From assembly GCF_002367995.1 (NCBI RefSeq), contig NZ_AP018207.1, positions 2,463,083-2,527,082 of the forward strand: a DNA stretch of 64,000 nt. The letters run 5' to 3'. Both the position numbers and the translations under genes were made by a program. Each line of letters opens with the position of its first letter. The first letter of the stretch is position 1. Source of the stretch: Calothrix brevissima NIES-22 (GTDB lineage Bacteria > Cyanobacteriota > Cyanobacteriia > Cyanobacteriales > Nostocaceae). Below the pieces are notes generated by a model. It ran no database searches and was not told the origin of the DNA. It saw only the letters and a list, made by a program, of their open reading frames with translations. Shown one piece after another: positions 42,645 through 45,943 of this stretch.

Positions 42645-44120
42645 ATGACTTCTGCTACAACTGTAAAAACCGAGTACGAAGCGATTATTGGTTTAGAAAC
42701 CCATTGTCAGCTGAGTACAAATACCAAGATTTTTTCTACCAGTTCGACAGCATTCGGTGGAGACCCCAATACTAACATCGATCCAGTATGTATGGGTTTA
42801 CCTGGAGTATTACCAGTTCTCAACCAAAAAGTACTTGAATATGCCGTCAAAGCAGGTTTGGCGCTTAATTGTCAAATCGCTAAATATAGCAAATTTGACC
42901 GTAAACAGTATTTTTATCCAGATTTACCTAAAAATTACCAAATATCACAATATGACTTACCAATCGCTGAACATGGTTGGTTAGAAATTGAATTGGTAGA
43001 TGCTGATGGCAATCCTACACGCAAACGCATTGGGATTACCCGATTGCACATGGAAGAAGATGCAGGTAAATTAGTCCACGCAGGTAGCGAAAGGCTTTCC
43101 GGCTCTAGTTATTCTCTGGTAGATTACAATCGCGCAGGTGTACCATTAGTTGAAATCGTTTCCGAACCAGATCTGCGTTCTGGACAAGAAGCTGCTGCTT
43201 ATGCCCAAGAATTGCGGCGCATTGTACGCTATCTTGGCGTTAGCGATGGCAACATGCAAGAAGGATCTTTACGTTGCGATGTCAACATCTCTATTCGTCC
43301 AGTAGGACAAAAAGAATTTGGCACAAAAGTAGAAATTAAAAACATGAACTCATTCAACGCCATCCAAAAGGCGATTGAATATGAGATTGAACGCCAAATT
43401 GCAGCCACAGAAGCTGGCGATCGCATTATCCAAGAAACTCGGCTGTGGGAAGAAGGTTCGCAACGTACAATTAGTATGCGGACAAAAGAAGGTTCTAGCG
43501 ATTACCGCTATTTCCCCGAACCAGATTTAGCACCAATTGAAGTTTCCCCAGCACAATTAGAAAATTGGCGCAGCGAACTTCCCGAACTCCCAGCCCAAAA
43601 ACGCCATCGTTACGAAACTGAATTAGGGCTTTCTGCCTACGATACTGGAGTTTTGACAGAAGATAAGCCTGTTGCTAACTATTTTGAAGCCGCGATCGCA
43701 GCTGGTGCAAATCCCAAAGCTGCTGCTAACTGGATTACTCAAGATATTGCAGCTTACCTCAATAAGCAAAAACTCACCATCAGCGAAATCGGTTTAACTC
43801 CCCAAAATTTAGCTGATGTGATTTTGCTGATTGAACAAGGTAAAATCAGTAACGCCCAAGCCAAACAAAAGTTACCAGACTTGCTTAAAGGCGTATCTCC
43901 TGAGAAAGCTTTCGCCGGACAAGAACTCATCAGCGATCCTGCTATTTTAGAACCCATCGTCGATGAAGTCATCGCCGCCAATCCCAAAGAACTCGAAAAA
44001 TATCGCAACGGTAACACCAACCTCAAAGGCTTCTTTGTTGGACAAGTCCTGAAAAAAACCGAAAAACGCGCCGATCCCAAGCTGACAAATGAATTGGTAG
44101 AAAAGAAACTCAATTCTTAA
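42645..44120 (+). CDS. gatB: Asp/Glu-tRNA amidotransferase subunit B
   Basis: This 491-aa subunit has the GatB signatures: YEAIIGLETHCQLSTNTKIF, VCMGLPGVLPVLN, RKQYFYPDLPKNYQISQYD and EGSLRCDVNISIRP, plus a YqeY-like C-terminal helical domain (about 340-490). It is the tRNA-activating kinase subunit of GatCAB. The gene lies upstream of the small RNA array; the C-terminal region points at the gap. Confidence 0.95.
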   Translation: MTSATTVKTEYEAIIGLETHCQLSTNTKIFSTSSTAFGGDPNTNIDPVCMGLPGVLPVLNQKVLEYAVKAGLALNCQIAKYSKFDRKQYFYPDLPKNYQISQYDLPIAEHGWLEIELVDADGNPTRKRIGITRLHMEEDAGKLVHAGSERLSGSSYSLVDYNRAGVPLVEIVSEPDLRSGQEAAAYAQELRRIVRYLGVSDGNMQEGSLRCDVNISIRPVGQKEFGTKVEIKNMNSFNAIQKAIEYEIERQIAATEAGDRIIQETRLWEEGSQRTISMRTKEGSSDYRYFPEPDLAPIEVSPAQLENWRSELPELPAQKRHRYETELGLSAYDTGVLTEDKPVANYFEAAIAAGANPKAAANWITQDIAAYLNKQKLTISEIGLTPQNLADVILLIEQGKISNAQAKQKLPDLLKGVSPEKAFAGQELISDPAILEPIVDEVIAANPKELEKYRNGNTNLKGFFVGQVLKKTEKRADPKLTNELVEKKLNS

Positions 44121-44312: not shown

Positions 44313-44410
44313 TCCTCACAAGGAACAATAAAAATCCATCTTCTCTAGTCCCTAGCCCCTAGCCTAAGCGCCCCTATTTTTAGGGCTTGTTTAATGACTA
44401 ATACAAAGAT

Positions 44411-44443
44411 GGGTTATACCCCTCAATCCTAAAGTGCTATACT
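44411..44443 (+). promoter_or_regulatory. Promoter of small RNA unit 1
   Basis: -35-like TTATAC (44414-44419) and -10 TATACT (44438-44443) with an 18-bp spacer. The -35 lies in a short palindrome GGGT-TAT-ACCC (44411-44421), at the same place as in the other units. Confidence 0.55.
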
Positions 44444-44449
44444 CTGTTA

Positions 44450-44500
44450 ATTGAATACACCATGATGGTCTGGAGAGCTTTTAAATGGCTCTTCTTTTTC
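44450..44500 (+). ncRNA. Putative small RNA, unit 1
   Basis: The first, most diverged unit of a four-copy array. It contains CACCATGATGGTCTGGAGAG and ends in a terminator stem GAGAGC/GCTCTT with a T-run (44494-44500). The start is inferred 7-9 bp after the -10. There is no ORF. The conserved core CACC-TGATG-TCTGGAGAGC is shared with units 2-4. Confidence 0.55.
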
Positions 44501-44545
44501 TTGACTCCACCAACTTAGACAAAAATATTCCAAAATTTTTAATAG

Positions 44546-44579
44546 GGGGTCTTGCCCCTCATAACAAATGTGTTATAAT
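44546..44579 (+). promoter_or_regulatory. Promoter of small RNA unit 2 with palindrome
   Basis: -35 TTGCCC (44552-44557), 16-bp spacer, -10 TATAAT (44574-44579). GGGGTCTTGCCCC (44546-44558) is a perfect palindrome over the -35, and ATAACA-AATG-TGTTAT (44561-44576) is a second palindrome touching the -10. Both are candidate operators. Confidence 0.7.
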
Positions 44580-44585
44580 CTGATA

Positions 44586-44638
44586 TATAGATGCACCCTG
44601 ATGATCTGGAGAGCTGCCCAAGTAGCTCTCTCTTTTTT
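44586..44638 (+). ncRNA. Putative small RNA, unit 2
   Basis: About 50 nt starting near ATAGATGCACCCTGATG and ending in an intrinsic terminator: GAGAGCT (44609-44615) with AGCTCTC (44624-44630) around an 8-base loop, then TCTTTTTT. It is identical to unit 4 over 78 bp (44546-44623 against 44836-44913), including the promoter. No start codon leads to a meaningful ORF. Confidence 0.7.
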
Positions 44639-44689
44639 AAAGCTTCCATAAAACTTCATGATATCTTTGCACAAAAATCGCTGACTGAT

Positions 44690-44722
44690 GGGTATTGACC
44701 CTCATGCGCAAAATGCTATGAT
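44690..44722 (+). promoter_or_regulatory. Promoter of small RNA unit 3 with palindrome
   Basis: -35 TTGACC (44695-44700), 16-bp spacer, -10 TATGAT (44717-44722). The palindrome is GGGT-ATTG-ACCC (44690-44701): its arms differ from units 2 and 4 (GGGG/CCCC) but remain self-complementary, a compensatory pattern. Confidence 0.7.
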
Positions 44723-44728
44723 ATGCTG

Positions 44729-44780
44729 CGTAGATGCACCCTGATGACCTGGAGAGCCGCTTAAGTAGCTCTCTTTTTTT
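44729..44780 (+). ncRNA. Putative small RNA, unit 3
   Basis: Starts near CGTAGATGCACC and keeps the core CACCCTGATGACCTGGAGAG. The terminator stem is GAGAGC/GCTCTC (44752-44757 with 44768-44773) followed by seven T. The terminator loop sequence differs from units 2 and 4 while the stem is kept. Confidence 0.65.
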
Positions 44781-44835
44781 ATTAGCGATAAAACAGCAAA
44801 AAAAGATTAATCATTTTTTTATATTTTTTAAGTAA

Positions 44836-44869
44836 GGGGTCTTGCCCCTCATAACAAATGTGTTATAAT
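44836..44869 (+). promoter_or_regulatory. Promoter of small RNA unit 4 with palindrome
   Basis: -35 TTGCCC (44842-44847), -10 TATAAT (44864-44869), with the same GGGGTCTTGCCCC palindrome (44836-44848) and ATAACA/TGTTAT palindrome as unit 2. Confidence 0.7.
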
Positions 44870-44875
44870 CTGATA

Positions 44876-44926
44876 TATAGATGCACCCTGATGATCTGGA
44901 GAGCTGCCCAAGTGGCTCTCCTTTTT
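44876..44926 (+). ncRNA. Putative small RNA, unit 4
   Basis: This copy is 78-bp identical to unit 2 through the promoter and transcript. One A-to-G change (44914) sits in the terminator stem and keeps pairing as U-G (GAGAGCT with GGCTCTC). A CTTTTT tail follows. It lies 145 bp from the 3' end of the convergent MBL gene. Confidence 0.7.
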
Positions 44927-45070
44927 CAATTTTTATCCACAACTGAATATTTTCTAGTCAAGACTTGAGTCTTCTATGTGTCACCGAGCTTTTTTCTTGC
45001 ATGAACTAAGGGCAGTTTTATTAATCAATGCACAATGACTACAATGCCCTAACAATTTCCAGCAGAATAC

Positions 45071-45943
45071 CTAAACAGCTTTCATCCATTCAATACACTT
45101 TTTCATTTCTTGGTGCATGGTATCAACATCAGCATGAAATCTTCGACCATGACCAGGTAATACCCACTCAAATGAGTAATCAGCTAACTTACTCATTGAT
45201 TTAATCTGTTCTGACCAAGAATACCAACAGAAATCGCGGAACGCAACCAATTGTTGTAAATTATTTGACCAAGCGAGATGATCGCCAGTAAAGAGAAACT
45301 TATTTTGATAAAGTAAAACAGTGTGCCCTTGGGAATGACCGGGAACTGGGATAATTAATACATCTGCACTCAAAGCAAATGGTTCCACACCAGTCAGTTG
45401 GATTTCTACATTGCGAGTACCCGCAGTAATATCATCTGCATGAAGAATGCGCTGACAATGAAAATGTTCGGCAAACTTTTGATGATCTGCAATATCATCT
45501 CTGTGGGTGAGGTACATATAAGCAATTCCCCCAATGTCCTCTAAACGCTTGACTAGAGGCGCTGAAAAACTAGGAGAATCAACTAAAATATTCCCTGCTG
45601 GATGTTGAATAAAATAGCTAGCAGCAGCAAAAGATTTTTCTGAGTGATAGCCACAATGGTAAACATTTTCTGCTATTAATATTGGCAGAGTTTCTTGAGC
45701 AATTTTAATATCTTCAGGTTTTTCAACTGTACCAATAGAATTAGTAGGACAAGATAAAAGTGCTTGTAGTGCTGCTAATCTTTCAGTTGGATTTGTGGGT
45801 TGATGATAAACTGCTGACTGTTCGTCAATACTATGAAATACTTCCGGAGCCATCCAGCGACAGGTATCACAATCTATACAAGTATTATCTACATAAAAAT
45901 CGCCGTGAACATTTTCTGAGCGACGTAGTTTTAAATTCGCCAT
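45071..45943 (-). CDS. Ferredoxin-MBL fusion protein
   Basis: This 290-aa protein fuses an N-terminal [4Fe-4S] ferredoxin-like domain (about 12-75; CIDCDTCRWMAPEVF and CPTNSIG) to a metallo-beta-lactamase domain (about 95-290; GNILVDSPSFS, THRDDIADHQKF, GHSQGHTVLLY, TGDHLAW and PGHGRRFHADV). The usual HxHxDH motif is HRDDIADH, lacking the middle His, so metal binding may be altered. A redox-linked hydrolase is a possible role; substrate is unknown. It is convergent with gatB across the small RNA array. Confidence 0.85.
   Translation of the reverse strand: MANLKLRRSENVHGDFYVDNTCIDCDTCRWMAPEVFHSIDEQSAVYHQPTNPTERLAALQALLSCPTNSIGTVEKPEDIKIAQETLPILIAENVYHCGYHSEKSFAAASYFIQHPAGNILVDSPSFSAPLVKRLEDIGGIAYMYLTHRDDIADHQKFAEHFHCQRILHADDITAGTRNVEIQLTGVEPFALSADVLIIPVPGHSQGHTVLLYQNKFLFTGDHLAWSNNLQQLVAFRDFCWYSWSEQIKSMSKLADYSFEWVLPGHGRRFHADVDTMHQEMKKCIEWMKAV

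Follow-up and report, generated by a model that had tools for sequence, protein, structure and literature searches.

What do the four short tandem units behind gatB of Calothrix brevissima NIES-22 encode, and what would control them? We analyzed a 64,000-nucleotide stretch of this genome (herein termed the window; coordinates are window positions unless preceded by the contig label C1) together with related genomes. The best reading of the sequence data is that the units specify an ancient base-pairing small RNA that is controlled by HetR and is older than heterocysts. Spelled out, they would be four genes of a ~53-nt trans-acting sibling of the small RNA NsiR1, with HetR-controlled promoters and a 5′ segment that acts by pairing, and we put the probability of this whole reading at about 0.8.

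Four tandem units downstream of gatB

The gatB gene (42645 to 44120, plus strand), an ORF with the Pfam domains GatB_N and GatB_Yqey and the NCBIfam assignment TIGR00133 gatB, encodes subunit B of the Asp/Glu-tRNA amidotransferase. The interval between it and a convergent gene is spanned by four tandem units on the plus strand (44400 to 44932). The convergent gene (45071 to 45943, minus strand), which adjoins the array, carries a 4Fe-4S ferredoxin domain and then a metallo-beta-lactamase-type domain (weak, below the Pfam cut-off). Copies of a 101-nt direct repeat start at 44400, 44536, 44679, and 44826 (spacings of 136, 143, and 147 nt), with identities to unit 2 (100%) of 61% for unit 1, 72% for unit 3, and 94% for unit 4. 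Reading the sequence confirmed the claim of an earlier note on this DNA that 78 bp are identical between unit 2 (44546 to 44623) and unit 4 (44836 to 44913). Genome-wide (9.26 Mb, nine contigs searched), the units occur in four copies, all at the array.

Each unit is built on the same plan: a palindrome at −35, a TG-extended −10 element, an RNA region of ~53 nt, and a GGAGAG...CTCT hairpin followed by T. The short region of the units begins near GATGCACCCTGATG, which has diverged in unit 1. The palindromes read GGGTTATACCCC in unit 1, GGGGTCTTGCCCC in units 2 and 4, and GGGTATTGACCC in unit 3, and they match GGGN5CCC exactly in units 1, 2, and 4 and with one mismatch in unit 3.

The putative operator of unit 2, GGGTCTTGCCC (44547 to 44557), lies inside GGGGG-TCTTG-CCCC (44545 to 44558) and overlaps the −35 element TTGCCC; it is followed by the TG-extended −10 element TATAAT (44574 to 44579) and by a small RNA with predicted ends at 44586 and 44638, which contains the segment ATAGATGCACCCTGAT (44587 to 44602) and a terminator stem (44608 to 44631) and scores 80.5 bits with R1, the covariance model described below. 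Unit 3 has the putative operator GGGTATTGACC (44690 to 44700; the one-mismatch site) overlapping the −35 element TTGACC, the −10 element TATGAT (44717 to 44722), and an RNA predicted at 44729 to 44781 (71.5 bits), with the segment GTAGATGCACCCTGAT (44730 to 44745; 16/16) and a stem at 44751 to 44774. In unit 4, the putative operator is again GGGTCTTGCCC (44837 to 44847, inside GGGG-TCTTG-CCCC at 44836 to 44848), the −10 element is TATAAT (44864 to 44869), and the RNA is predicted at 44876 to 44927 (77.9 bits), with ATAGATGCACCCTGAT at 44877 to 44892 and the stem at 44898 to 44921. Unit 1 has the exact putative operator GGGTTATACCC (44411 to 44421), a TG-extended −10 element TATACT (44438 to 44443) recognized by alignment with the other units, and an RNA region (44450 to 44499; 52.7 bits) with the diverged 5′ segment ATACACCATGATG and a terminator stem at 44472 to 44494. 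All −10 elements and RNA regions are on the plus strand. The combination of a kept operator and a drifted 5′ segment in unit 1 recurs in a genome of the same genus (L006) and might reflect decay or a new target.

A promoter scan found σ70-like −35 and −10 elements at 16-nt spacing, with TG-extended −10 elements, in units 2, 3, and 4; in unit 1, TATACT was present without a scored −35. The promoters alone prove nothing, because the scan called four promoter-like sites (the fourth, at 44501, outside the units) and shuffled sequences gave 2.5 ± 1.3. Terminator-like sites numbered four, versus 0.7 ± 0.7 in shuffles, and corresponded to units 1, 2, and 4 and to a site at 44372 before the array. The terminator of unit 3 was not called, its stem having a mismatch, yet it folds at −13.0 kcal/mol. 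Fold z-scores were −2.34, −2.94, −1.09, and −2.55 for units 1 to 4, and the fold of unit 3 was equaled by 26 of 200 shuffles. The description of four tandem units, each with palindrome, promoter, and terminator, is thus confirmed. The features of a base-pairing small RNA appear to be present, namely, an own promoter, a short predicted transcript, an intrinsic terminator, and a conserved segment outside the stem.

Conservation of the RNA and its place behind gatB

A BLAST query beginning after the palindrome (44560 to 44640) found matches in 216 of 388 genomes of the order and in 97 of 149 genera (E ≤ 0.01). R1, a covariance model of the RNA alone that was built from 40 diverse sequences and likewise excludes the palindrome, matched 230 of the 388 (E ≤ 1e-8) and, in a set of 244 genomes taken from the phylum, 75 (E ≤ 0.001); 13 of these 75 matches were weak (1e-4 to 1e-3, families f46 and f47) and were not counted as members, and three checked genomes with such weak matches had no HetR. 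Beyond the order, the class yielded nine genomes with a match; every one of them has HetR, and the eight that were fetched all have an exact operator. The unit is therefore kept in related strains, and its conservation across many genera bears out the proposal of a multicopy small RNA locus. Genomes carry between 1 and 14 copies (R1 matches). A wider contig search returned 18 stretches, far fewer than the BLAST count suggests, and served for names only; a match in Ca. Abyssobacteria from this search was set aside as probably due to chance.

In the 40 diverse sequences, 98.2% of the stem cells are paired, and the covariation score of the stem (0.300, versus 0.247 ± 0.015) was reached by none of 500 shuffles. 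Two stem pairs are changed on both sides (reached by 52/500 shuffles) and 14 further pair types occur (111/500), neither of which is significant with 40 sequences. Of 146 copies, 130 share the core ATGCACCCTGAT without change, among them 22/22 in genomes without detected HetR, although the search itself favors this segment.

Of the 99 fetched RNA loci, 67 (20/30, 11/20, 23/30, and 13/19 by batch) have a GatB relative on the same strand upstream of the RNA, whose first recognized copy follows ~60 to 600 nt after GatB. Many of the remaining loci have short flanks, so that the absence of GatB there says little; L131, a 28.5-bit match in which no 5′ segment was seen, was excluded from the loci. 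Among named records, the gatB arrangement occurs in Leptolyngbya sp. PCC 7375, Leptolyngbya Heron Island J, Adonisia turfae, Calothrix parasitica NIES-267, Plectonema cf. radiosum, and Richelia and Rivularia MAGs. In family f8, two of six loci are behind gatB. In family f18, 11 of 12 are, and because of this position we regard the f18 RNAs as orthologues without the operator.

The −35 palindrome and HetR

HetR requires GGGN5CCC, its site at hetP is GAGGGGTCTAACCCCTC, and the 21-mer crystallized with it ends ...CCCCTCAT (PMC4649674, PMC4192349). In the array, the putative GGGN5CCC operator is centered ~35 nt before the predicted start. We compared operators with HetR (PF03574) for 147 R1 matches (146 distinct; E ≤ 1e-6) in the 99 fetched loci; since the BLAST query and R1 both exclude the palindrome, these screens did not select for it. 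The HetR-positive set comprised 124 copies in 76 genomes of 17 families. Taking the best copy of each genome, the site was exact in 56 of 76, had one mismatch in 19 (16 of which belong to family f1), and had two in one (G096), so that 75/76 were within one mismatch; by copy, 11 of 124 had two or more. Family f1 is that of the window itself and, by GTDB usage, presumably the heterocystous clade. Outside f1, the site was exact in 40 of 44 HetR-positive genomes, and gene and operator occur together in 16 further HetR-positive families as well as in named Leptolyngbya and Adonisia records.

The genomes without detected HetR contributed 22 copies in 22 genomes. In the 18 of these from f18 (12) and f8 (6), families without any listed HetR-positive genome, the RNA is intact and no site came within one mismatch, all having at least two; their promoters show no half-site column above 0.72 but keep the TG-extended −10. 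As f8 and f18 are two lineages, few independent operator changes stand behind this contrast, which is uncorrected for relatedness. The other four genomes (G258, G199, G008, and G144) keep an exact site; their families otherwise have HetR, two of the genomes are 89 and 82% complete and the others 99 and 97%, and we assume recent loss of HetR. An exact site arose in 0.6% of shuffled zones. The reversed pattern CCCN5GGG was never exact and came within one mismatch in 18/76 HetR-positive genomes and 1/22 others; because of this control, exact sites carry weight and one-mismatch sites are weak evidence alone. Conservation extends to the flank CCCCtCA (C 0.92, T 0.73, C 0.92, and A 0.88 in 60 HetR-positive genomes with the site at its modal place, where selection at one mismatch or fewer inflates the half-site columns), and the inner five bases vary more. 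The palindrome thus fits GGGN5CCC and follows the presence of HetR among orthologues, which supports the earlier suggestion that a regulator may bind it at −35.

The RNA itself also tends to accompany HetR. By R1, 195 genomes have both, 35 the RNA only, 41 HetR only, and 117 neither (odds ratio of 16, uncorrected for relatedness); by BLAST, the respective counts are 196, 20, 40, and 132 (odds ratio of 32, likewise uncorrected). An R1 match at E ≤ 1e-8 is absent from 41 of 236 HetR-positive genomes. All 40 HetR-positive genomes missed by BLAST have an R1 match at E ≤ 0.01, 30 of them with only 27 to 34 bits. Of these 30, five were read, each of which has copies of the 5′ segment, under a HetR-type operator in L152 and L155 and, in L149, L150, and L151, in arrays whose promoters resemble DIF1, the TCCGGA element of NsiR1 promoters.

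It counts against HetR control that the site of unit 3 has one mismatch, whereas GGGN5CCC is called indispensable in PMC4649674. A strict operator search of the own genome gave 10 matches, versus 5 for a control pattern; two are units 2 and 4, and at the other eight no hetP promoter was recognized by eye. It also speaks against HetR control that the array locus was not identified in Table 1 (HetR ChIP-seq) of PMC4192349; the terms “sRNA,” “NsiR1,” and “non-coding” do not appear in the main text of that paper.

We infer from these features that each unit would fire from its own extended −10 promoter and that HetR, binding the operator that overlaps the −35, would set the level of the RNA. The palindrome of a genuine small RNA might instead be read by a factor that travels with HetR in filamentous cyanobacteria, such as HetZ, HetP, or another regulator. 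Codistribution cannot separate HetR from equally distributed genes; close HetF, for example, is found in 26 of 27 HetR-positive genomes tested and in 0 of 3 HetR-negative ones, which have weak HetF relatives only. However, the palindrome agrees with the solved HetR operator of hetP in half-sites, 5-nt spacer, and flank (PMC4649674, PMC4192349), and HetZ has been tied to a different motif, TCCGGA (PMC7377430), so that we think a different reader improbable. Granted HetR, activation seems slightly more likely than repression. A repressing HetR would sit on the −35 and shut the RNA off, and the RNA would then mark cells with low or inactive HetR. This is quite conceivable, if not what we expect: the right half-site overlaps a usable −35 (TTGCCC or TTGACC) in units 2, 3, and 4, the TG-extended −10 persists in HetR-less lineages that have no operator, and one gene is reported to be derepressed in a hetR mutant (PMC4192349). 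On the other hand, the commonest inner sequence, TGACA (11/60 genomes), leaves no good −35, and the extended −10 would then depend on assistance; moreover, NsiR1, with DIF1 near a similar place, is expressed in differentiating cells (PMC9045159).

Two further readings question the small RNA itself. The conserved segment could be a tiny ORF (Met-His-Pro-Asp...) whose product is a signaling peptide; most copies are readable as ATG CAC CCT GAT, immediately followed by a stop in the majority of copies of L148 and L150, two f2 arrays. Against translation, CAC, CCT, and GAT never vary at their third positions among 40 diverse sequences, so that synonymous changes are lacking; what follows GAT is read differently from one RNA body to another, and no ribosome-binding site was seen by eye. 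For the lack of synonymous changes and the differing downstream reading, we rejected the peptide, which we hold to be very unlikely. That the units, tandem and near-identical as they are, form a functionless dispersed repeat or mobile element has a negligible likelihood; the four copies sit in one place, and the position behind gatB is conserved in 67/99 loci. The possibility that they match a mere dispersed repeat, which the earlier note had raised against its own interpretation, is contradicted by this confinement to one place.

Candidate targets and relation to known systems

Under the HetR-controlled small RNA reading, the 5′ segment GUAGAUGCACCCUGAU would pair with mRNA leaders and block their translation, by analogy with NsiR1 (PMC9045159). 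The leader of hetF is a plausible target, in which case the RNA would complete a loop back to HetR. NsiR1 is reported to repress alr3234 and hetF and to pair with the leader (PMC9045159). Duplexes of the own-genome hetF leader with units 2, 3, and 4 were calculated at −37.1, −32.8, and −41.7 kcal/mol (intramolecular structure being ignored), and 6, 15, and 0 of 200 shuffles, respectively, were as strong; unit 1 gave nothing above shuffles (86/200 as strong). Owing to its overlap with nsiR1.1, this leader contains a 15/16 complement. A search of the own genome for the complement of the 16-nt segment with wobbles allowed found one exact match outside RNA genes, with ~1 estimated by chance, at C1:373783 (L163). 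At this locus, the sequence around the start codon of a CHASE2 histidine kinase (Pfam) can pair with the segment over 17 bp, wobbles included. With one mismatch, 46 own-genome matches less 16 in RNA genes left 30, versus 31 for a backward control, and thus no excess. A 13-nt complement had 48 matches in 11 genomes, RNA genes included, versus 33 for the control; no gene recurs among 23 loci read of those 48, and two lie 35 to 36 nt before a start codon (L256, L261). The hetF leader and the CHASE2 kinase are therefore put forward as candidate targets only. Since HetR-less copies keep the core and the three HetR-less genomes tested are without a close hetF, the ancestral target was probably a gene other than hetF.

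The role of hetR in nonheterocystous species has been called a mystery (PMC11298460), and the array RNA, small and widely conserved, is a concrete candidate for a HetR target in such filaments, for which the HetR-less orthologues provide a ready natural control. Deletions of hetR, of patX, and of both genes have been published for Leptolyngbya sp. BL0902 (PMC11298460). A bolder extension, to which we give somewhat less than even odds, is that no other direct output of HetR is as old or as widely conserved as this RNA: the RNA behind gatB would have come under HetR when filamentous cyanobacteria acquired the regulator, and NsiR1 would be a later duplicate whose HetR operator was exchanged for DIF1. 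If so, the HetR circuit of multicellular cyanobacteria, heterocyst-free ones among them, would have the step from HetR to a small RNA at its core.

The comparison with NsiR1, drawn in the earlier note as an example of tandem small RNAs, proved to be more than an analogy. None of 4,227 Rfam models matched the window at its gathering score; the best neighbor of the units was NsiR1 (RF02399), a heterocyst-specific, nitrogen-stress-induced small RNA whose model gave units 3, 2, and 4 scores of 25.0, 17.8, and 14.8 bits against a cut-off of 39 and did not report unit 1. The 16-nt 5′ end GUAGAUGCACCCUGAU is common to both RNAs (unit 3 matches at 16/16 and units 2 and 4 at 15/16; unit 1 has diverged). 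Both are ~60 nt long, come in tandem copies with their own promoters and terminators, and have a regulatory element at about −35, and NsiR1 is also linked to HetR (PMC9045159). They differ in the 3′ hairpin, which in the array has the GGAGAG stem, and in the promoter, which carries DIF1 (TCCGGA) in NsiR1 and the putative HetR operator GGGN5CCC in the array, where TCCGGA near −35 is absent from all four promoters. NsiR1 copies lie near and antisense to hetF, whereas the array lies behind gatB, ~1.5 Mb from hetF (NCBIfam HetF), and unlike NsiR1, the array RNA is also present in HetR-less genomes.

The own genome also has a genuine NsiR1 array (C1:999696-1001617), where 12 matches exceed the cut-off; a further such match lies at C1:4268899. 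Of 11 copies shown from the NsiR1 array, 10 have TCCGGA near −35 and the other TCCTGA, and the 3′ hairpin is unrelated to that of the RNA behind gatB. Solitary NsiR1-like copies lie away from both arrays at C1:4268899 (L144, TCCGGA) and C1:1975965 (L145, TCCCGA). Among 11 scanned loci of the family found behind gatB, two reach the NsiR1 cut-off (L115, 39.5 bits; L095, 39.4 bits); judged by such scores, the boundary between the two RNA families is soft. DIF1-type copies outside f1 (L148, L150, L151, L216, L218, and L222) also reach this cut-off. The arrays L148 (G033), L150 (G001), and L151 (G285) of family f2 hold NsiR1-like RNAs above the Rfam cut-off with TCCGGA-like promoters. L152, L153, L154, and L155 combine the shared 5′ segment and a HetR-type operator with other terminator hairpins, and L152 and L155 reach the NsiR1 cut-off. 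Ten of 27 hetF loci have a TCCGGA copy in antisense orientation in the 600 nt before hetF. Eight of the ten are outside f1 (8/25 non-f1 hetF loci: L216, L218, L220, L221, L222, L231, L235, and L237), and the NsiR1-type antisense arrangement, described for NsiR1.1 in Nostoc (PMC9045159), seems to be older than heterocysts.

Among other RNAs, RNA162 of Limnospira indica, an expressed 57-nt RNA of a nonheterocystous species that is said to resemble NsiR1, may, compared by its description, belong to the array family or to the DIF1 branch (PMC8400943). PMC4734099 predicts conserved Nostoc small RNAs, and its text, as available, does not name the array RNA. Our literature searches turned up no account of this RNA family behind gatB or of its HetR operator; the RNA may sit unnamed in supplementary tables.

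With the hetP-type HetR regulon, the array promoters have the GGGN5CCC operator and the CTCA flank in common (PMC4192349, PMC4649674). The HetR regulon of heterocystous cyanobacteria includes hetP, hetZ, patA, and hetR, whereas the gene that HetR would control here is a small RNA. NsiR1, so far studied as a heterocyst RNA, is placed in an older superfamily that, as far as its sequences indicate, is modular: a constant 5′ segment is joined to several exchangeable 3′ hairpins and terminators and to two exchangeable promoter types, with either a HetR operator or DIF1 at a similar place.
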